From assembly GCA_019873685.1 (NCBI GenBank), contig JAIOAT010000002.1:62001-126000 (forward strand): a stretch of DNA of 64,000 nucleotides, in the 5' to 3' direction. Shown piece by piece: positions 51,284 through 64,000 of the stretch. Made by a program: the position numbers and the translations under genes. The notes beneath the pieces were generated by a model, which did not search any database, was not told where the DNA came from, and was given only the letters and a program-made list of their open reading frames with translations. Position 1 is the stretch's first letter. Each line of letters opens with the position of its first letter. This DNA is from Chloroflexota bacterium. Lineage in GTDB: Bacteria > Chloroflexota > Anaerolineae > Aggregatilineales > Ch27.

Positions 51284-51359
51284 GCTCCAGCTGTAGTTGC
51301 TGCCAGTTTTGGGTGGCCTATCTGCTGATTGTTCATTGCTGCAAAGGAGCCCAGACGTC

Positions 51360-52133
51360 ATGATGGAACAGGAACATCAGGCATTGAGGGTGCAGGATCA
51401 GGATCGCGGGGCGTCGCGAGTGGTGATCGTGTTGATCACCGCCGTGCTCTTCTTTGTGCTGGGATATGGGGCCGCCTGGCTGGCGCTGGGGGCGGCGGTT
51501 CAAGAGCAGGTCGGGCTGCGTGAGACAGTGCGCACAGCAGTTGCCGAGTCGTTCGCCGGGCTTGACCTCCGGGCGGAGGCTGCGCCAACAGCTACGCCGA
51601 CGGTTCTGGAAGTCAGCGTCGATGATGATCCGGCGTTTGGCCCGGAGGATGCGCCGATCACGATTGTGGAGTTCTCCGACTTCCGCTGCGGGTTCTGCGG
51701 GCGGTTCCACGCCCAGACGTACGGGCCGTTGATGGAGAAGTACGAGGGCCTGATCCGCTTTGTATACCGCGACTTCCCGGTCGTTGGTGGGGAGCGGGCA
51801 GCCCTGGCCGCCGAGTGTGTGCATGATCAGGGTGAAGACCTGTTCTGGGCGTACCATGATGTCCTGTTTGCCAGCCAGCAGTCGCTGACCAGCGATGATG
51901 CGCTGGTTTCGCTGGCGGCAGACCTGGGCGTGGATACCGAAGCGCTGGCGACATGCCTGGCTGACGAAGTGTACGCTGATGAGGTGCAGAAGGATTTTGC
52001 CGATGGTATGGCGCTGGGCGTACGCGGGACGCCGGCGTTCTTCATCAACGGCCGTGCCGTGATCGGCGCGCAGCCGCTGGCGGTCTTCCAGCAAATCATT
52101 GACGCAGAGCTGGCAGCACAGGAAGCTGGCTAG
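51360..52133 (+). CDS. membrane-anchored DsbA/BdbD-type thiol oxidoreductase
   Basis: A 257-residue protein with one N-terminal helix (about 21-45) and a thioredoxin-fold domain of the DsbA type (about 85-250). The active site is C110-GF-C113, and the cis-proline loop is RGTPAFFING. It should form disulfides in exported proteins and be re-oxidised by the VKOR encoded about 1 kb away. I chose the ATG at 51360, with AAAGGAG ten bases upstream; an in-frame start further upstream would contain that site. It is probably co-transcribed with the lipoprotein gene. Confidence 0.9.
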   Translation: MMEQEHQALRVQDQDRGASRVVIVLITAVLFFVLGYGAAWLALGAAVQEQVGLRETVRTAVAESFAGLDLRAEAAPTATPTVLEVSVDDDPAFGPEDAPITIVEFSDFRCGFCGRFHAQTYGPLMEKYEGLIRFVYRDFPVVGGERAALAAECVHDQGEDLFWAYHDVLFASQQSLTSDDALVSLAADLGVDTEALATCLADEVYADEVQKDFADGMALGVRGTPAFFINGRAVIGAQPLAVFQQIIDAELAAQEAG

Positions 52134-53092: not shown

Positions 53093-53608
53093 CTAAATGG
53101 CAGGGTTGCGCATGAACAGCACCAGGCGAATGGTGGCAATGACAAACACCAGCGTCATAAGGATGGCCGAAGCCACGCACCAGGTGCAGATGGCGTAGAT
53201 AAGGAAGAGTTCGGCGTAGGTCAGGTACAGCGAGAATAGAAAGCCAAAGAGCGCCAGCCCGAAGATCAGGGCGTGGCTATACTCGCGGAGAAATGCTGCC
53301 CGATCCTGAAAGATCCACAGCAGCAGGATAGCCAGGTAGCCGACAAAGCCCAGGAGTGCTACAGGGATGCCGACTATCCTGGCGTAGGCGCTGTTCTGGA
53401 CGAAGCCACAGTCAATGGCGGGCGCACCCGGCTGGCCGACTGCGCCTTCAGTACCGCCGGGGCAGGAAGTCGGGATGCCGGAGATCTCTGACCAGCTCAT
53501 ATAGGCGGCGACGAGCAGACCCAGAAACGCCACAATGATCCCGGCGATGCGCAGCCAGTGACCGGTAGTCGCGGTGGCAGAGCGTTTGGCGCGAGAGCTA
53601 CGTGTCAT
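53093..53608 (-). CDS. vitamin K epoxide reductase-family disulfide oxidase (VKOR)
   Basis: Bacterial VKOR re-oxidises DsbA-like proteins with quinone. The 171-residue protein has the four-helix core, the loop cysteines C49 and C67 (TSCPGG and DCGFV), a serine in VQNSAYA, and the active CxxC pair C141/C144 (ICTWC). The ATG at 53608 follows GAAGGAT; an in-frame start seven codons upstream is less likely. No fused thioredoxin domain is present, so it should serve the separate DsbA-like protein at 51360-52133. Confidence 0.94.
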   Translation of the reverse strand: MTRSSRAKRSATATTGHWLRIAGIIVAFLGLLVAAYMSWSEISGIPTSCPGGTEGAVGQPGAPAIDCGFVQNSAYARIVGIPVALLGFVGYLAILLLWIFQDRAAFLREYSHALIFGLALFGFLFSLYLTYAELFLIYAICTWCVASAILMTLVFVIATIRLVLFMRNPAI

Positions 53609-53659
53609 CGGTACATCCTTCGAGAGCATGCAGATGGGTACAAGGGTATCGTGGGCGCG

Positions 53660-53804: not shown

Positions 53805-53845
53805 CTAGCTCAAAGGATCATCCGTCGCTGCCATAGGTGGATGCT

Positions 53846-56185
53846 GTGCCAAGTAATGGCTCTATGGACCTCCAACAATTGCTGAGCAGCCTGTCCAATC
53901 TGACGCCTGCGGAAGTGGCGCTCATTGAGCGCGCCTATCGGCGTGCTGAGAAAGCGCATGAAGGCCAGGTTCGGCGTTCAGGAGAGCCGTATTTTGTTCA
54001 CTGTGTGGCGGTGGCCCAGATTCTGGCGGAACTGAATCTGGATGGCACAACCATCGCTGCGGCGCTCCTGCACGACACGGTTGAAGACACTGGCCTAACG
54101 CTGGAAGACATTGAGCGTGAATTCGGGGCGGATGTAGCGCGCCTGGTCGACGGCGTGACCAAGATGGAGAACCTCCCGACGCAGGTTTCCGGCAAGGACC
54201 GTGACCGCGAAGCGGAATTCCTGCGCAAGACGATGCTGGCAATGAATGACGATGTGCGCATCGTGCTCATCAAGCTAGCCGATCGGCTCCACAACATGCG
54301 CACCCTGGGATACCTCGATCCAGAGCGACAAAAAGAGGTGGCCCAGGAAACGATGGATATCTTTGCCCCGCTGGCCAACCGGCTGGGCATCTGGCGCATG
54401 AAGTGGGAACTGGAAGACCTGGCCTTCCGCTACCTGAATCCCAAGGCCTACCGTGAGATCGCTACCCGGCTCGATGAACGGCGGGCTGACCGGGATAAAG
54501 ACCTGCAGCGGATCATTGAACATCTCTCCCGCAAGCTGGAAGAAGCCAACATCAAGGCCAAGGTTACGGGGCGGCCCAAGCACATCTACAGCATCTATCG
54601 CAAGATGCAGCGCAAAGATGTCTCCTACGAGCAGGTCTATGACATCCGGGCGGTGCGCGTGCTGGTGGATGATATCCCGACCTGTTACCAGGTGCTGGGG
54701 CTGGTGCATTCGATCTGGCGCCCGATCGCCGGTCAGTTTGACGATTATATTGCCGCGCCCAAAGACAACTTCTACCAGAGCCTGCACACCACGGTGCATG
54801 ACGAACAGGGCCGATCGCTGGAAGTGCAGATCCGCACCTGGGAAATGCACCGCAACGCCGAATACGGGATCGCCGCTCACTGGCGCTACAAGGAAGGCAG
54901 CAAGCGAGAAAGCGAAGCCTTTGAACGGCACATCAACTACCTGCGCTACCTGATGGCCTTCAAGGATGAGGATGAGGAGATCAAGGACGCGACCGAATTC
55001 ATGAATACCCTCAAGTCGGAGGTATTCCAGGATCGCGTCTATGCCTTCACGCCCAAGGGCGATATCGTCGATCTGCCCGCCGGGGCGACGCCGGTGGATT
55101 TCGCCTATTACATCCATACCGAGATTGGCAACCGTTGCCGGGGCGCTAAAGTCAATGGTGCGCTGGTTGGGCTGGACTATAAGCTGCGGACAGGCGACCG
55201 GGTGGAGATTCTGACGGCCAAGCGTGGCGGCCCCAGCCTGGACTGGCTCAGCCCGCACATGGGCTATACCGCCACTACCCGCGCCCGATCCAAGATCCGC
55301 CAGTGGTTCCGCAAGCAGAATCGCGACAACAACATTGCCGCAGGCCGCGTCGCGCTGGATCGTGAGCTTAAGCGGCTGGGCCGGGCGGATATGTCCTATG
55401 ATGATGTTGCCGCGCTGTTCAAGATGCGGCCCGATGATCTGCTGGCGGCGATTGGCCATGGGGACATCAACAGTGGCCAGATCGCATCGCGTATTCTGGA
55501 GGCCGAACGCCGTATTGGGCGGGAAACGCTGGAGCGCGAGTTGCGGCTGCTTGGCCGGACGGACATGAGCTATGAGGAGGTAGCCGCCCTCTTTGGCTTC
55601 CAGCAGGCGGAAGATTTGCTTTCCGCGATTGGCTACGGCGATATCACCGGCGAGCAGATCAATGAGCGCATTCGCGCGCATGAGCAGCTCAAGGCGCTGG
55701 AACGCCCCGATCAGGAAGTCCCGCTGGATGCCTCCGATGGGGTAGAGATCGAGGGGAGTGGTGGCGGCCTGCTGATCAACCTGGCGCGCTGCTGTAATCC
55801 GACACCGGGCGATATGATCATCGGGTATATCACGCGCGGGCGGGGGATCACGGTTCACCGCAGCGACTGTAAGAATGTGCTCAATACCACGGAACCTGAC
55901 CGACTGATCACTGTGAACTGGCGTCGCACGGAGCAACGCGCTCGCGCCTACCCGGTACCGGTGATGATCGTGGCCTTCGACCGGGAGGGCCTGATGCGCG
56001 ATATCGGGGCTGTGATCGCCGACGAAAAGATCAATATGTCTAACGTCAGCATCACAACCAAACAGAACATCGCCACCTTCCTGGTCACCATGGAGATCGC
56101 GGATGTTGATCAGTTGACACGGGTGCTGACCAAGATTGAGCGCCTGCCAAATGTGGTCAAAGCGCATCGCCGCACGGCTGTATGA
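53846..56185 (+). CDS. rel: RelA/SpoT-type (p)ppGpp synthetase/hydrolase with duplicated helical domain
   Basis: The long RSH enzyme controlling the stringent response. The hydrolase HD domain has H52, HD 76-77, ED 80-81, D146 and N150, so ppGpp hydrolysis should work. The synthetase domain (about 230-350) has QFDDYIA at 297-303 and EVQIRT. TGS is at about 397-457, a helical region at 500-610, the RCCNP zinc-finger motif near 648 and ACT at about 704-777. The helical region holds two copies of one module (about 500-552 and 559-610), which explains 779 residues. GTG at 53846 follows AGGTGG; a GTG at 53837 and an ATG at 53864 are alternatives. Confidence 0.94.
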   Translation: MPSNGSMDLQQLLSSLSNLTPAEVALIERAYRRAEKAHEGQVRRSGEPYFVHCVAVAQILAELNLDGTTIAAALLHDTVEDTGLTLEDIEREFGADVARLVDGVTKMENLPTQVSGKDRDREAEFLRKTMLAMNDDVRIVLIKLADRLHNMRTLGYLDPERQKEVAQETMDIFAPLANRLGIWRMKWELEDLAFRYLNPKAYREIATRLDERRADRDKDLQRIIEHLSRKLEEANIKAKVTGRPKHIYSIYRKMQRKDVSYEQVYDIRAVRVLVDDIPTCYQVLGLVHSIWRPIAGQFDDYIAAPKDNFYQSLHTTVHDEQGRSLEVQIRTWEMHRNAEYGIAAHWRYKEGSKRESEAFERHINYLRYLMAFKDEDEEIKDATEFMNTLKSEVFQDRVYAFTPKGDIVDLPAGATPVDFAYYIHTEIGNRCRGAKVNGALVGLDYKLRTGDRVEILTAKRGGPSLDWLSPHMGYTATTRARSKIRQWFRKQNRDNNIAAGRVALDRELKRLGRADMSYDDVAALFKMRPDDLLAAIGHGDINSGQIASRILEAERRIGRETLERELRLLGRTDMSYEEVAALFGFQQAEDLLSAIGYGDITGEQINERIRAHEQLKALERPDQEVPLDASDGVEIEGSGGGLLINLARCCNPTPGDMIIGYITRGRGITVHRSDCKNVLNTTEPDRLITVNWRRTEQRARAYPVPVMIVAFDREGLMRDIGAVIADEKINMSNVSITTKQNIATFLVTMEIADVDQLTRVLTKIERLPNVVKAHRRTAV

Positions 56186-56907
56186 GGTGCTTTCCGGAGA
56201 AGAGGTCTGTGGGGCAGGCGAGCATACGCATTCACCCGGCGTTCTGGTTGCTGATGGCCGCGGTGATGCTCTTTCCCCTGAGTCTGTTGTCGAGTGGTGA
56301 AGCGAGGCTACTGGCTCAGCCGGTGACGACGGCGCAGCCGCCGTTCCGCCCGTTGCCCACGCCACTGGCGACGCAGGCCGCCGGCCAGGAGTTACACGCG
56401 TTAATCGCCGAGGTCACGCAGGCCAACCTAGCAGGAGGCGCGACGACGTTCTGGGCAGGCGGCAGACTCGGCGTGGATGCGTCCCTCGATCTGGCGGTGA
56501 CGATAGGCGAGAAGCTGCCAGCTTTCGGGTTGATGACGCGGAATGGGCAACCATTCGAGCTGGACCTGGTCGGGGAGCCGCTGCTACTCAACTTCTGGGC
56601 GTCCTGGTGTGAGCCATGCAAGGTAGAATTCCCGCTGCTGGTGACGGCTGATGCCGACTCGACCTCGCCTTTTCGGGTGGTCTTTGCCAATGTCTGGGAC
56701 GAAGCGGGTTCCTACGAAGACTTCCTGGCAGGGTATCCGGAAGATATTCTGGTAGTGATTGACTCTGGCGGTATGTTGCCGGGGCTGTACGATCTGCACT
56801 ACATTCCGGTATCTATACTGGTGGATGAGCAGGGCGCTGTACAGCTTATTCAACGCGGGCCGGTCAATCGTGCGGTGCTGATGCTGGCTGCGGTACTGGC
56901 ATCTTAG
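56182..56907 (+). CDS. TlpA-like membrane-anchored thioredoxin-fold protein
   Basis: A 241-residue protein with one N-terminal helix (about 20-37), a Pro/Ala linker to about 105 and a TlpA/ResA-type thioredoxin domain. The active site is C143-EP-C146 in FWASWCEPC, and the cis-proline is in YIPVSILVDE. TlpA/ResA proteins reduce cysteines for cytochrome c or CuA maturation. The start overlaps the rel stop by four bases (ATGA), so translation is coupled. Copper chaperones encoded at 38182-39335 would fit as partners. Confidence 0.9.
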   Translation: MRCFPEKRSVGQASIRIHPAFWLLMAAVMLFPLSLLSSGEARLLAQPVTTAQPPFRPLPTPLATQAAGQELHALIAEVTQANLAGGATTFWAGGRLGVDASLDLAVTIGEKLPAFGLMTRNGQPFELDLVGEPLLLNFWASWCEPCKVEFPLLVTADADSTSPFRVVFANVWDEAGSYEDFLAGYPEDILVVIDSGGMLPGLYDLHYIPVSILVDEQGAVQLIQRGPVNRAVLMLAAVLAS

Positions 56908-56976
56908 ACAGGGTCTGTCCGAGTAAGTGTAGCACTGACCTCAACTTATCAAAACTACTACATTTCACAATACGGT

Positions 56977-57007
56977 ATTTGGCCAAATTATACTATTCTG
57001 TTATACT
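56977..57007 (+). promoter_or_regulatory. promoter with overlapping perfect palindrome, upstream of the BTAD regulator
   Basis: ATTTGGCCAAAT (56977-56988) is a perfect 12-base palindrome. It contains TTGGCC (56979-56984), which stands 17 bases before TATACT (57002-57007). A second TATACT directly follows the palindrome. A repressor bound there would cover the -35 box; autoregulation is inference. Confidence 0.58.
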
Positions 57008-57087
57008 GTGCACAGGAATGGTGTGCTGGTTCAGGCTTCTGCTGTGGCGAGCAATGTGCTCGTCTATGGGGGTATAGGAATAGGACG

Positions 57088-58344
57088 ATGTCTTACCTCA
57101 GGTTGGTCCAGGCAGCGCAGATGACCCTTCCACAGACGCTGGCGCGCTGCAATGTGTTGATCTTGCATCCTCAGTTCCGGTATCACAATCCGTTCATCGA
57201 TGTTCTGCTTGCCGGGAGCCAGGCTAAAGCGCTGCATCTGACCCTGTCTGAACCGGGGACTACGGCGCTGAAGCTCTGGGGGAGCCTGGCTCGTGAACTT
57301 GAGCGGGTGTATGGTGTCGCGCTCTCGCCGCTGACAGATGTGGAGATGGCCGCGCGGGCGCTCGGGGATGCGATCCGTCCGCTGCAGCGGTTGTTGATCA
57401 TCCTGAGCGCGTATGATTACGCCGCTGATGACGTGCACCTGCTGGTGGCGCGGCTGGCTTCTGCGCTGCCGGACGAGGTCGTATTTGTGCTGGACGGTCG
57501 CGCGTGGCCAAACGCCCTGATTGCCAGCCTGGATTCGCCGCAGCGGGCAGCGCTGGTGCCGGTCTCGCCGCAGGATATGCTGCTGGACTACCTGAACCGC
57601 GACCCGAATCGCGTGCTTCTGGAAGTGCACGCCCTCGGTTCCGGGCAGGTGCTGGTCAATGGCCGCCATATCGCCCAGTGGGATGGCGCGCTGCCGCGGG
57701 CATTGTTCTTCTACTTTGTGGATCGCGGTCTGGCCACCCGTGATGATATCTTCTCGACGTTCTGGCCGGAGCTTTCCACCCGCGAGGCGACCAACGTTTT
57801 CCACGTCACCAAGCGCAAGATCAGCGAGATTCTGCAGGTTGACCTGACGGTCTATTCATCGGGCTTTTACCGCCTAGCGCCAAACATCGACCTGCATTAC
57901 GATGTGGTGTCATTTGTAGAAGCCGTGCAGGAGAGTGCGATTGCCGAGCCGGACGAAGCGGAGGAACTGCTCCGGCGTGCTATCCGGTTGCATGAGCGCG
58001 ATTTCCTGACCGATTTCGTTCAGCCCTGGGCGGTGCGGCGGCGAGAGGAGCTGCGGAGTACCTATGTGGACGCCCTGGCCGGGCTGGCCCGGTTGCTGGA
58101 GGACCGGGGGGAGATCGACGAGGCGCTGGGGCTGTATAGCCGCGCCTTTGGCGTATCGCCACAGCGCGAGGACCTGGCCCGCCAGCAGATGCGGTTGTAT
58201 GGACAGGCCGGGCAACCTGACCGCGCGCTGGGAGTCTATCACCGTCTGGTGACCGAACTGAAGACCTCGTTGGGGGTGACGCCCAGCCCGGAGACAGTTG
58301 CGCTGGCCGAGGAGGTGCAGCGGATGGCTCCGGCGGCCTGCTAA
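57088..58344 (+). CDS. BTAD-type transcriptional regulator with degenerate N-terminal module
   Basis: A 418-residue regulator. The C-terminal part reads as a winged helix (about 175-280: LLEVHALGSGQVLVNGRHI, then WPELSTREATNVFHVTKRKI) followed by a BTAD helical domain (about 285-415, with TPR-like repeats). This is the SARP/AfsR arrangement. The N-terminal 170 residues have LLIILSAYDYA and FVLDGRAWP segments in an order recalling the later part of MalT-type STAND ATPases, but no Walker A is present, so it probably does not bind ATP. Target genes are unknown; the glycosyltransferase gene downstream is a candidate. Confidence 0.82.
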   Translation: MSYLRLVQAAQMTLPQTLARCNVLILHPQFRYHNPFIDVLLAGSQAKALHLTLSEPGTTALKLWGSLARELERVYGVALSPLTDVEMAARALGDAIRPLQRLLIILSAYDYAADDVHLLVARLASALPDEVVFVLDGRAWPNALIASLDSPQRAALVPVSPQDMLLDYLNRDPNRVLLEVHALGSGQVLVNGRHIAQWDGALPRALFFYFVDRGLATRDDIFSTFWPELSTREATNVFHVTKRKISEILQVDLTVYSSGFYRLAPNIDLHYDVVSFVEAVQESAIAEPDEAEELLRRAIRLHERDFLTDFVQPWAVRRREELRSTYVDALAGLARLLEDRGEIDEALGLYSRAFGVSPQREDLARQQMRLYGQAGQPDRALGVYHRLVTELKTSLGVTPSPETVALAEEVQRMAPAAC

Positions 58345-58502
58345 CCGCGCTGGTATCGTGGCCGGGGAGCCGCATGAGCTGCAGGCTGCAGAGGCTCTCC
58401 GCCAGGGGGCGGCGCTATCGTTGAGGACTATAGCCACATCATTCGTCTCGTAGTTGGGAGGCGTGATGATGTGGCTCTGTGTTGCTGGACAGAGGTTAAA
58501 CG

Positions 58503-59591
58503 GTGCACGTCCTGCTTATCGAGCCGTATGGTGGTGGTTCCCATGCGGCCTGGATGGAGGGTTACCGGGCGCACAGCCGCCACACGGTCACGCTGCTGAG
58601 TCTGCCGGGGCAATACTGGAAGTGGCGGATGCAGGGTGGGGCGGCTACGCTGGCCCGTATGTTCCTGGCCTCTGATCTACAGCCGGATGTGATTCTGGCC
58701 AGCGATATGCTCAATCTGCCAGCTTTCCTGGGACTGACGCGGGCCAGAACCGCCCACGTGCCCTGTGCTCTGTACTTCCACGAGAACCAGATCACCTATC
58801 CCATGGCAGCGGGCCAGCGCAAAGAGGTGCACTTTCAGCTGGGGTTGATCAACTATCTGAGTGCGCTGGCTGCTGACGCGCTGTTCTTCAATAGCCAGTA
58901 TCATCTGGAGAGCTTCTTTGAGGGACTCCCCCGGGAACTGAAGCACTACCCGGATTTCAACGAACTGGACTCGATTCACTCGCTGCGTCAGAAATCCGCG
59001 GTATTGCCCCTGGGCCTTGACCTGCGCCGCTTTGACGCTTACCGGCCTTCAAGCCGGCGAAGCGGGCCGCCGTTGATCCTCTGGAACCACCGCTGGGAAT
59101 ATGACAAGAATCCACAACCATTTCTGAACGCGCTGATCCGGATGGCCGAAGCAGGGCTGGCATTTGAGGTGGCGCTGACCGGCGAGAACATCCGCCAGGT
59201 TCCGGAGGAATTTGAGGCGGCGCGCAGGCGGCTGGGCGAGCGGGTCGTGCAATACGGCTATGTGGAAGACTTTGCCCAATACGCTCGCCTGCTGTGGGCG
59301 GCGGACATTCAGGTCAGCACGGCGTACCATGACTTCTTCGGGGCCAGTACCTGCGAAGCCATCTATTGCGGGTGCCTGCCGCTGCTGCCGAAGCGGCTCA
59401 ACTATCCGGCGCTGATCCCGCCAGCCTTTCATGATCTGTGCCTGTATCTGGAAGGGCAGGTGAGCCAGCGCCTGGCTGAGCTGGTGGCGAGGCCCGTCGC
59501 GGCGCCGGCGGCGCTGCGCGAACACGTCAGCCAGTTTGACTGGTCGGTTCAGGCCCCGCGCTATGACGCGGCACTGGAGGCCCTGGTCTGA
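58503..59591 (+). CDS. DUF3524-type glycosyltransferase, homologue of tRNA-queuosine mannosyltransferase
   Basis: A 362-residue GT4/GT-B enzyme. The N-terminal domain has the family marks LLIEPYGGGSHAAWMEG and YFHENQITYP, found in the DUF3524 group that includes vertebrate GTDC1 (QTMAN), which mannosylates queuosine in tRNA-Asp. The C-terminal half has the donor-site segment HDFFGASTCEAIYCGCLPLLP. No other queuosine gene is in the window. The GTG start follows AGAGG. It is convergent with gyrA, with a one-base gap. A tRNA role is inferred from homology; activity on another acceptor is possible. Confidence 0.87.
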   Translation: MHVLLIEPYGGGSHAAWMEGYRAHSRHTVTLLSLPGQYWKWRMQGGAATLARMFLASDLQPDVILASDMLNLPAFLGLTRARTAHVPCALYFHENQITYPMAAGQRKEVHFQLGLINYLSALAADALFFNSQYHLESFFEGLPRELKHYPDFNELDSIHSLRQKSAVLPLGLDLRRFDAYRPSSRRSGPPLILWNHRWEYDKNPQPFLNALIRMAEAGLAFEVALTGENIRQVPEEFEAARRRLGERVVQYGYVEDFAQYARLLWAADIQVSTAYHDFFGASTCEAIYCGCLPLLPKRLNYPALIPPAFHDLCLYLEGQVSQRLAELVARPVAAPAALREHVSQFDWSVQAPRYDAALEALV

Positions 59592-59592
59592 T

Positions 59593-62058
59593 TCAGGTGG
59601 CTTCTGGCCTGGTTGCAGGCGTTTCCAGCCGCGGCTGGTAGACGACCACGCTCCTGACCGTTTCTTTGGCGCGGAGAGAGATCACGAAGTCGCCGCGGGT
59701 GCTGCGCCCGCCCTTCGGCGCCAGGCTGAGCCGCATGTATTTGGTCTTGTCCTTGCTGGTGATTACCACCAGATTGTCGTCACGGCGACCGATCACGCCA
59801 GCGGCCACCTCCAGCGCATCCTCCGGTAGCTTCATGGTGATCACACCGCTTCCGGCCCGGCCCTGCGTCGGGTATTCGGTCACCGGCGTATACTTGGCGA
59901 TGCCGGTATCGGTGATGACCCAGACAAACTGGCGCTCGTCGGCGATGCCAGCGCCAACCACACGATCCCGCTGACCGAGCAGCTTGACACCGCGCATCCC
60001 TCCGGCGGGCAGACCGGTCGGGCGCACAGAGTCGACAGGGAAGCGAATGGCCTGACCCTGCGCCGTGATCAGAATCACCTCGGTTTCCTCCCGCACCGGA
60101 AAAACCCATCCCAGACGCGAATCGCCCACGTTCATGACCTTGAACACGTTGGCGGTGGGACCGGGCAGGTCTTCCATGCGGATACGCTTGACATTGCCAT
60201 CAGCGGCCACCAGAAACAGGAAGCCCTCCGTCAGGGAGGTGGGCAGGCTGAGGGCGGCAGTAACCTTGCCGCGATCCTCTTCCGGCAGGGCGCAGAGTGC
60301 GTTTACTGGCGTGCCCTGCTCGGGGTCTTCCGCCTGCGGGATCTGGTGCACGGGAAGGGTGGCGGCTTCCCCTTTTTCGGTAAAGAGGTACAGGACGTGG
60401 GCAGTGTTACTGGCCAGCAGGACACGGGGCACCACGGGCGAGGTCGCGGTGATTCGCGGGGGGGTATCGGAATAGGTCCGGCTGATCAGACCGTCGGCAG
60501 TCAGGGCGACCCAGGTATCCTCATTGGGAATCTGCAGGTCGCCCGCGGAGACATCGCTGGCCAACCCGCCCATGATCACCGTCCGGCGGGGGTCGCCGTA
60601 GCGGGCTTTGACTTCCTTCAGTTCCTCTGCGATGGCCGCCCGCATGAGTTTGGGGCTGGCCAGCAGTTTCTCCAGGTGCTTGATGAGCTGGAGCTTCTCC
60701 TTGTATTCGTCCTGAATCTTCTTGCGTTCCAGGGCAGCTAACCGGCGGAGTTGCATATCCAGGATGGCCTGCGCCTGGACCTCGGTCAGATGGAATGCCT
60801 GGCGGAGGTTCTGGCGGGCGGTCTCGACGGTGCGCGAGCGGCGAATGATGTCGATCGCCTGATCGAGGTGATCCAGGGCGGTGAGCAGTCCTTCCAGGAT
60901 ATGCGCGCGCTCGCGGGCACGCTCCAGATCGTACTGACTGCGCCGTCGCACGACCGACAGCCGGTGATCCAGATAGACGCGCAGCGCCTGCTTGAGGCTG
61001 AGCGTGCGCGGCTCACCGTCCACCAGCGCCAGCATGATGATGCCAAAAGTGGTCTGTAGCGGGGTGAGCTTGAACAACTCAGCCAGCACCTGCGCCGGGT
61101 CAGCGGTGCGGCTGAGTTCGACTACCACACGCAGCCCCTGCCGGTCAGATTCATCGCGCAGATCGCTCATCCCTTCGATCTTGCCGGTCTGGGCCAGTTC
61201 CGCGATACGCTCAATAAGGCTGACTTTGTTGACCTGGTAGGGCAGTTCGGTGATGATGATCCGGCTCCGGCCTCGGCCCATGTCTTCCAGGTGGACTTTG
61301 GCCCGCACGATGATCTTGCCCCGCCCGACGGCGTAAGCAGCCTGTAGCGAGTCTTCGTCCGGCGTCGCGCCTTCGGCGCGGTAGACGATGCCGCCGGTGG
61401 GAAAGTCCGGCCCCTTGATGAAACGCATCAGTTCCGGGACGCCGATTTCGTCCAGCTTCTCCCAGTTCTCCAGCATGAAGACCAGTGCGTCGCACACTTC
61501 GCCCAGGTTATGCGGCGGGATATTGGTGGACATGCCCACGGCGATCCCGGAAGTGCCGTTGACCAGCAGGTTAGGCACACTGGCAGGCAGCACCAGCGGT
61601 TCCTCCAGGGTGCCGTCGAAGTTCTGAGCAAAGTCGACGGTGTTCTTGGCGATGTCCGCCAGCATGTCCTGGCCCATCGGCGCCATCCGCGCTTCGGTAT
61701 AGCGCATGGCGGCGGCGCCATCGCCATCGATGCTGCCGAAGTTACCCTGGCCATCGATGAGGGGATAGCGCATGGAAAAGTCCTGCGCCATGCGGACCAT
61801 GGCCTCGTAGACGGCCATGTCGCCATGGGGGTGATACTTGCCCAGTACCTCGCCAACGATGCGCGCGCTCTTCTTGTGGGCGCTTTCTGGCCCCAGGCCC
61901 ATGTCGTGCATCGCGTACAGGATGCGCCGGTGAACGGGCTTGAGGCCGTCGCGGGCATCCGGCAGGGCGCGGGACACGATCACACTCATGGCGTAATCAA
62001 GATACGCCTGGCGCATCTCTTCGTCGATTTTGACCGGTCGAACAACGCCGATTTCCAT
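59593..62058 (-). CDS. gyrA: DNA gyrase subunit A
   Basis: Gyrase A cuts and rejoins DNA to add negative supercoils. The 821-residue protein has the breakage domain with the active tyrosine Y120 ([10 protein letters not shown]), the coiled-coil gate, and a C-terminal beta-pinwheel. The quinolone region reads [14 protein letters not shown]81 and E85 stand where E. coli has S83 and D87. The canonical GyrA box (QRRGGRG-like) is missing from blade one, where [10 protein letters not shown] occurs (about 531-540); a weaker QGRAGSG lies in a later blade. A topoisomerase IV-like role is possible, but later blades ([17 protein letters not shown]) are gyrase-like. It has its own promoter. Confidence 0.9.
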
Positions 62059-62101
62059 GCGGGCATTCCTTACTGGTAACGCTCAGGAATTGTTGCGGAT
62101 T

Positions 62102-62130
62102 ATGATATGAAATGGCAGGCCGTCTGTCAA
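62102..62130 (-). promoter_or_regulatory. gyrA promoter
   Basis: On the minus strand a perfect TTGACA (62130-62125), a 17-base spacer and TATCAT (62107-62102) lie about 45 bases before the gyrA start. Confidence 0.75.
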
Positions 62131-62162
62131 ATAAAGAAAAACAAACGTTCTAATGAATTTGC

Positions 62163-62206
62163 AAAAAAAGCGCGGAGGGCGGCGCTATCACTAAACCGCC
62201 CTCCGC
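62163..62206 (-). terminator. Rho-independent terminator after rpoC
   Basis: On the minus strand GCGGAGGGCGG and CCGCCCTCCGC form a perfect 11-base stem followed by GC and a run of Ts (A-run at 62163-62169 on the plus strand). It separates rpoC from gyrA. Confidence 0.92.
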
Positions 62207-62222
62207 GTCAGTGCGCTGATGC

Positions 62223-64000
62223 TTACATTGTGTTGACGTCGCTCAGATCGCTCTCGGTCTCGTCGTAAAGCTCTTCTTCCTCGTCTTCGTCTTCGTCATA
62301 CTCGTTGACGAAGGTACGATGTTCCAGCGTGGTTTTCACGGCTTCGCTGGCCCGGTTCTGGTAGGCGTTGAAGCTGGTGCCAGCCGGGATGAGCTTGCCG
62401 ATGATCACGTTCTCTTTGAGGCCGTAGAGCGGGTCTTCCTTACCCTCGATGGCGGCGCCAGCCAGCACCTTGATGGTGTGCTGGAAGCTGGCTGCGCTGA
62501 GGAAGCTATCCGTGCTGAGCGCAGCCTTGGTGACGCCCAGGAGCACCGGCACGCCGACGGCAGGCTCACCACCCTTGGCCAGGACTTCCTCGTTGATCTT
62601 GAGCAGTTGCAGCTTGTCGACCAGCTCGCCGGGCAGCAGGTGAGTATCGCCGCTGCGAGTGATCTGCGCTTTGGAGAGCATCTTGCGGATGATGACCTCA
62701 AAGTGCTTGTCGTTGATGGGCACGCCCTGGCTGCGGTAGACCTTCTGCACCTCGCTTAGCAGGTAGAGCTGGGTTGCCTCAGCGCCAAGGATGCGCAGGA
62801 TGCGGTGCGGGTTCTTGGCGCCTTCGGTCAGTTGCTGGCCGGCGGTGACCCGCGCACCGTCATAGATGTCCGGCATCAGGCGGGCGCTGGAGGGGATTTC
62901 GTACTCCCGCTCTTCCCGGCGCTCGTAGCGCAGATAGATCCGGCCATCTTCCAGGTGCACCTGGCCATCCATCCCGGCGGTGATGACGTCTTCACCATCC
63001 GCCTGGCGGGCCAGCTCCTGCCCGGCTTTGACCTGCTGCTCATCTTCCACCAGCAGGACGTAGCCTGCCGGGATGTCGTACTGCTCGCTGACGACTTCGC
63101 TGTCGATGACCGTAGCGATACGCACGCCTTCCGGCGTCCTGGACAGCCGCACGATGCCAGCGATGTCGCTCATGACCGCTTCGCCCTTGGGCTTCTTGCG
63201 GGCCTCAAAGAGTTCCTCCACACGCGGCAGACCGCTGGTGATGTCGCCGGAAGCCTGGGCAGTACCGCCGGTATGGAAGGTACGCAGGGTGAGCTGGGTG
63301 CCGGGTTCGCCGATCGACTGCGCGGCGACGATACCGACCGCTGCGCCCACCTGAACGACCTCACCACGGCCCAGGTCACGCCCATAGCACTTGGCGCAGA
63401 TGCCATGCAGCAACTGGCAGGTCATCGGGCTGCGGACGTATACTTCGCGGACGCCAGCATCCACCAGCGCATCAGCCAGGTCTTCATCGATCATCTCATT
63501 GCGGCCAACGATCACCTCGCCCGTCTTGGGGTTGAAGGCCGGGGCTGCGGCGAAACGACCGATGAGCCGTTCCTGCATCTTCTGGCCGGCCACGTCATCA
63601 TCGGCGCGGATCCAGATGCCTGCTTCGGTTTCGCAGTCTTCCGCATTGATGATGACGTCCTGGGCCACGTCAACCAGGCGGCGGGTCAGGTAGCCAGCGT
63701 CAGCGGTACGCAGTGCGGTATCCGCCAGACCCTTGCGCGCGCCGTGCGAGGAGATGAAGTACTCCAGGGCGTCCAGACCCTTGCGGAAGTGGCTGCGGAT
63801 GGGCAGGTCAATGATGCGACCGGAGGGGTCGGCCATCAGACCGCGCATACCGGCCAGCTGGGTGATCGGGCCGAAGCCGCCTTTGGTGGAACCGGACAGC
63901 GCCATGATCGCAATCGGGCCGAATGGATCGAGGCGGTTCTTGATGACTTCGCTCAGGTCGCTCTTGGCCTTGGTCCAGCTGTCGATGGTGATCTGGTAAC
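62223..64000 (-). CDS. rpoC: DNA-directed RNA polymerase beta' subunit, C-terminal part
   Basis: About 592 C-terminal residues of beta' are present; the gene continues past the right edge. Visible marks are the bridge-helix/trigger-loop region ([28 protein letters not shown]), the second zinc site ([18 protein letters not shown]) and [18 protein letters not shown]. The C-terminus is a strongly acidic tail ([20 protein letters not shown]), which is longer than usual and probably disordered. A strong terminator follows the TAA at 62223. Confidence 0.96.

Follow-up and report, generated by a model that had tools for sequence, protein, structure and literature searches.

The window, a 64,000-nucleotide stretch of a contig from a Chloroflexota genome, carries a gene whose product is predicted to be a GT-B glycosyltransferase of the QTMAN/GTDC1 family that glycosylates queuosine (Q) at position 34 of tRNA (Q34), a reading to which we give a probability of roughly 0.7. 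The homology to the queuosine mannosyltransferase is already known, as Pfam names the family QTMAN with its bacterial members included; what is new here is a gene-level test of the acceptor, whose outcome could have gone against this reading but did not.

Reading frame, domains and predicted fold

The reading frame of the gene is unbroken, its start position is consistent with the alignment of relatives, and the opposite strand across the same bases reads as stop-interrupted (Table 1). Compared with a relative from the same genus (L004), the protein is 95% identical and the gene carries 109 nucleotide differences, with third codon positions accounting for 85; dN is 0.027, dS 0.426 and dN/dS ∼0.06. 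The third-position bias and this ratio indicate a gene under purifying selection, and rule out both a pseudogene and a chance open reading frame.

Table 1. Features of the QTMAN-family gene and of selected neighbouring genes in the window.
Feature	Position	Strand	Remarks
QTMAN-family glycosyltransferase gene	58503..59591 (stop included; coding 58503-59588)	+	GTG start, 362 aa + stop
Shine-Dalgarno-like AGAGG	58491..58495	+	7 nt 5′ of GTG; consensus match only
QTMAN_N domain, residues 3-172	58509..59018	+	PF12038, E 7.7e-57; acceptor-side half of the GT-B fold, a role inferred from GT-B enzymes
Motif EPYGGGSH, residues 7-14	58521..58544	+	G12, S13, H14 invariant in 18 aligned relatives
Motif HENQITYP, residues 93-100	58779..58802	+	H93, E94, N95, Q96, Y99, P100 invariant
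Motif FNS, residues 129-131	58887..58895	+	N130, S131 invariant
GT1/GT4 nucleotide-sugar domain, residues 183-295	59049..59387	+	PF00534; R197, K202, F279-G280, E285 invariant
gyrA/parC-like gene	59593-62058	-	adjoins QTMAN
VKOR-family protein	53093-53629	-	adjoins RelA gene
DsbA-like thioredoxin-fold protein	51297-52133	+	upstream

Family membership was tested by the match to PF12038 (QTMAN_N, formerly DUF3524), which scores 192 bits (cut-off 25) and spans profile positions 2-168 of 168. The invariance of the motif residues was read from an 18-row alignment, in which QTMAN_N is found in 18 of 18 relatives and Glycos_transf_1 in 17 of 18. In the window protein the Glycos_transf_1 match (PF00534) has a score of 27.4 bits that lies barely over the cut-off of 26.4, and a search of NCBIfam returned no informative family, the best weak match being a polysaccharide glycosyltransferase. 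A human GTDC1 sequence, used as a lead only, aligns over both halves of the protein (178 aa at 32% identity and 169 aa at 37%), carrying the same motifs and with the C-terminal half better conserved; relative to it, the window protein is ∼95 aa shorter and is without the long linker insert of the human protein. The reading frame described in the earlier note, the two DUF3524 motifs that it picked out and its placement of the protein with GTDC1/QTMAN are all borne out, the last by the PF12038 match as well as by the alignment to the human GTDC1 sequence.

The predicted model (mean pLDDT 86.5, pTM 0.87) has a GT-B fold and gave 334 PDB matches at E ≤ 0.001 in Foldseek, the best listed of which are retaining GT-B enzymes (GlgM, glycogen synthase, MshA, sucrose-phosphate synthase, PimA, PimB′, HepE and tetrahydrobiopterin glucosyltransferases). 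At the sequence level, phmmer with the single protein gave only weak matches in the PDB, whereas a profile built from the QTMAN alignment reached GT4 enzymes, with PimA at E ∼1e-5 over the C-terminal half; neither search of the PDB found a solved QTMAN structure. PimA and PimB′ are GDP-mannose enzymes, and the GT-B matches as a whole span many donors and include enzymes with small-molecule acceptors. The model thus supports assignment of the protein as a putative retaining GT4-like GT-B enzyme, but the fold does not support any specific donor. It is quite conceivable, if somewhat below even odds, that the enzyme acts on Q34 of tRNA with a sugar, hydroxyl or tRNA other than in vertebrates (e.g. 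forming glucosyl- or GlcNAc-Q, or manQ on tRNA-Tyr), an alternative that is a sub-case of our best explanation and overlaps with it. A different sugar would be in keeping with the readiness with which GT4 enzymes switch donors, with the closest solved structures, which include UDP-glucose, UDP-GlcNAc and GDP-mannose enzymes, and with the marginal GT1 domain score, although PimA, a GDP-mannose enzyme, is among the best profile matches and the half of the protein that is better conserved relative to human GTDC1 is the C-terminal one.

Queuosine genes, distribution and gene neighbourhood

The host genome (4.1 Mb in 109 contigs, 97% complete) encodes one TGT together with QueA and QueG, the latter ∼5 kb from TGT with both on one 23.5-kb contig. 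The pocket of the host TGT is of the preQ1 type, with Cys158 (DEC) and Val233 (GGLAVGE). QueH was not found in the host genome, QueG carrying out that step, nor was Qng1 (PF10343). As TGT, QueA and QueG are encoded, the host would be able to make Q; judged from its genes, the tRNA-level part of Q synthesis is wholly encoded. The earlier note had proposed looking for tgt, queA and queG and held that its reading would fall if the tRNA of this organism had no queuosine: all three genes are present and, at the gene level, queuosine is within reach of the host.

Homologues of the window protein are widespread. A pattern scan gave 505 confirmed relatives, the best 80 of which belong to Chloroflexota, Desulfuromonadales, Desulfobacterales, KSB1, Calditrichota, Neomarinimicrobiota (Fidelibacterota), Bacteroidota, Acidobacteriota, Planctomycetota and Myxococcota, and carriers include the culturable Geomonas and Geothermobacter. 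In the tree, the window QTMAN groups with Anaerolineae relatives (23 rows, SH-aLRT 97). Divergent QTMAN_N matches of 43-48 bits over positions 1-140 occur in one genus (G212:C1:876504-876962 and G280:C3:323592-324050) and possibly belong to a different glycosyltransferase.

In the phylum, 400 genomes were surveyed, of which 43 have QTMAN_N, 238 QueA and 313 TGT. QTMAN is present in none of the 80 genomes that are without both TGT and QueA as against 43 of the 320 others (Fisher 6e-5), counts that treat genomes as independent and are uncorrected for kinship. TGT accompanies QTMAN in 42 of the 43 carriers, and all 43 have TGT or QueA. QueA is found in just 14 of the 43, and the link to Q seems at first sight to fail. 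Among the 162 genomes without QueA, TGT is present in all 29 QTMAN carriers and in 53 of the 133 non-carriers (Fisher 1.9e-10, likewise uncorrected), these carriers representing about three lineages (families f26 and f62 from other classes, and f5 and f7 from the same class). A second set of 50 QTMAN carriers, obtained by a different route and mostly from outside Chloroflexota, has TGT in 48, 3 of them as only partial matches at contig ends, and of the 18 TGT pockets that could be read there 17 show DEC/GGLxVGE and one DQC. Three QTMAN carriers are without TGT, one of which has QueA and QueG (G360), the others being drafts of unstated completeness (G405, G411). The co-occurrence with TGT in both the phylum and the second set makes Q-tRNA a more probable acceptor than a molecule that is not tRNA.

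The gene order of the window over 53837-63998 is RelA, redoxin, BTAD, QTMAN, gyrA and rpoC, and several of these neighbours recur at the Anaerolineae loci (gyrA in 25, rpoC in 24 and RelA in 23). When the ORFs around the loci were searched by BLAST with the host TGT, QueA and QueG and with QueH of relatives, none of tgt, queA, queG and queH turned up within ∼8-10 kb of the QTMAN gene at any of 100 loci; genomic context is thus neutral, supporting neither a role in Q nor a different one. A GT4 enzyme of a polysaccharide cluster was considered and rejected, as the flanks of QTMAN are gyrA/rpoC and the BTAD, redoxin and RelA genes.

The same neighbourhood bears on an alternative in which queuosine plays no part: the enzyme would glycosylate, for example, a lipid, a precursor of exopolysaccharide or a metabolite resembling a pterin, and the link to TGT would stem from shared ancestry alone. 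We regard this as unlikely. It would agree with the separation of QTMAN from the que genes, with the tetrahydrobiopterin glucosyltransferases and polysaccharide enzymes among the Foldseek matches, with the weak match to a polysaccharide glycosyltransferase in NCBIfam and with co-occurrence counts made without tree correction. It is at odds, however, with the complete lack of QTMAN in genomes that have neither TGT nor QueA (80 of 80), with the retention of QTMAN alongside TGT in lineages that are without QueA, a pattern repeated in the second set, and with neighbours that are housekeeping genes (gyrA, rpoC, relA) rather than a surface-polysaccharide cluster. Elsewhere in the window, the VKOR-family and DsbA-like genes (Table 1) possibly form a disulphide-bond pathway.

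Proposed reaction and related systems

On our preferred reading of a Q34 glycosyltransferase, TGT, QueA and QueG, present at the gene level, would put preQ1 into tRNAs with GUN anticodons and convert it to queuosine. The C-terminal half of QTMAN would bind the nucleotide sugar via R197 and K202, in the manner generally known for GT4 enzymes, with E285 as what we take to be the usual GT4 carboxylate; the donor is probably GDP-mannose. The conserved motifs of the N-terminal half may line a cleft that accommodates the Q34-bearing anticodon of one Q-tRNA. By a retaining mechanism, one sugar would then be attached to one of the cyclopentenediol hydroxyls, so that the wobble base would become mannosyl-Q or a different hexosyl-Q, which could tune the decoding of the matching NAC/NAU codons. 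Hexosyl-Q of some kind is the likely product, and mannose is the sugar that we would name first, though at only a little better than even odds; sugar donor and target tRNA are not readable from sequence. In vertebrates, manQ is found in tRNA-Asp. The characterised QTMAN transfers mannose to the allylic hydroxyl of tRNA-bound Q, leaving the other hydroxyl unused (PMC12518689). Since manQ occurs on tRNA-Tyr rather than tRNA-Asp in Aedes (PMC11705514), tRNA-Asp is not to be assumed as the target here, in line with the possibility raised above of a different tRNA.

The sugar might also be added to epoxyqueuosine-tRNA or another earlier intermediate, or to free queuine or queuosine during salvage, given that carriers span synthesis and putative salvage lineages and that glycosylating free queuine could help to store or retain it. 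This we hold to be very improbable, as Q-tRNA is the substrate of the characterised relative (PMC12518689) and carriers that synthesise Q would have no need to trap queuine.

The animal QTMAN/GTDC1 enzymes have the same N-terminal domain, a GT-B/GT4 C-terminal domain and EPYGGGSH-, HENQ- and FNS-type motifs, and act in cells where Q-tRNA can be made; the window protein differs from these in being bacterial, in that its activity is predicted, and in that its host would make Q itself instead of taking it up. GluQRS, the glutamyl-Q tRNA-Asp synthetase, is known to modify Q34 further in bacterial tRNA, where it likewise attaches a group to the cyclopentenediol, but it is a paralogue of aminoacyl-tRNA synthetases and the group is glutamate, not a sugar. 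PimA, PimB′ and other GT4 mannosyltransferases have the GT-B fold, the retaining reaction and the GDP-mannose donor predicted for the window QTMAN, whereas their acceptors are lipids, they have no QTMAN_N domain and the resemblance is recognisable in sequence only over the C-terminal half. Both manQ and galQ have been described in animals, and the literature searched, which leaves out most subscription papers, contained no account of glycosyl-Q in bacteria. The vertebrate Q-tRNA galactosyltransferase QTGAL (B3GNTL1) catalyses an analogous reaction on Q34 (PMC12518689), yet it is a separate enzyme that targets the second hydroxyl of the ring to form galQ, and it was not among the relatives of the window QTMAN in any search made. 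The purpose of manQ and galQ is still called unknown (PMC12518689).

Carriers without QueA and variants of TGT

Two of the carriers without QueA (G092 and G132) have Qng1, a queuosine nucleotide salvage enzyme whose homologue in Sphaerobacter has been the subject of structural work (PMC11592518). As a general explanation of QueA-less carriers, salvage by Qng1 was rejected, since it fits only these two genomes and not families f26 and f62, whose tested members have none of QueA, QueG, QueH and Qng1 apart from a weaker QueA match in G313. The TGT of f26/f62 (L052-L064) has ∼30 extra residues, Leu in place of Cys158 (DEL for DEC) and GG-SLG for GGLSVGE. The changes Cys158Val and Val233Gly are held to set the queuine-type TGT of eukaryotes apart from the preQ1 type (PMC3660597), and from the altered pocket at these two deciding sites we infer that f26/f62 salvage queuine directly; their TGTs are candidate queuine-inserting bacterial TGTs. 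If f26/f62 are read in this way, QTMAN would be kept wherever Q reaches tRNA, whether via synthesis or salvage.

On balance, we favour the wider view that glycosyl-Q is not an animal invention, in which many bacterial phyla (Chloroflexota, Desulfuromonadales, KSB1, Calditrichota, Fidelibacterota, Bacteroidota, Acidobacteriota and others) would make hexosyl-Q by QTMAN homologues and some lineages without Q synthesis would keep the glycosylation by salvaging queuine with a re-tuned TGT. If so, bacterial glycosyl-Q would be a wobble modification unreported in bacteria in the literature searched, its role in decoding would be directly testable in the culturable carriers Geomonas and Geothermobacter, and the question would arise of whether animal QTMAN was inherited from bacteria, the same source as queuine.

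Further variation in TGT is seen among the carriers. G313, with its weaker QueA match (E 2e-75), no QueG and a TGT that is not of the preQ1 type (L060), is not a clean fit to either the synthesis or the salvage pattern. Several QTMAN carriers have a second, more distant TGT paralogue of 370-400 aa scoring ∼300-320 bits (G122:C1:3804630-3805700, G170:C1:2468342-2469415, G376:C1:3351293-3352366 and others). Finally, most QTMAN carriers of the Desulfuromonadales type have two full-length TGT genes each (G404, G407, G409, G417, G422, G427, G429, G435, G436 and G439).
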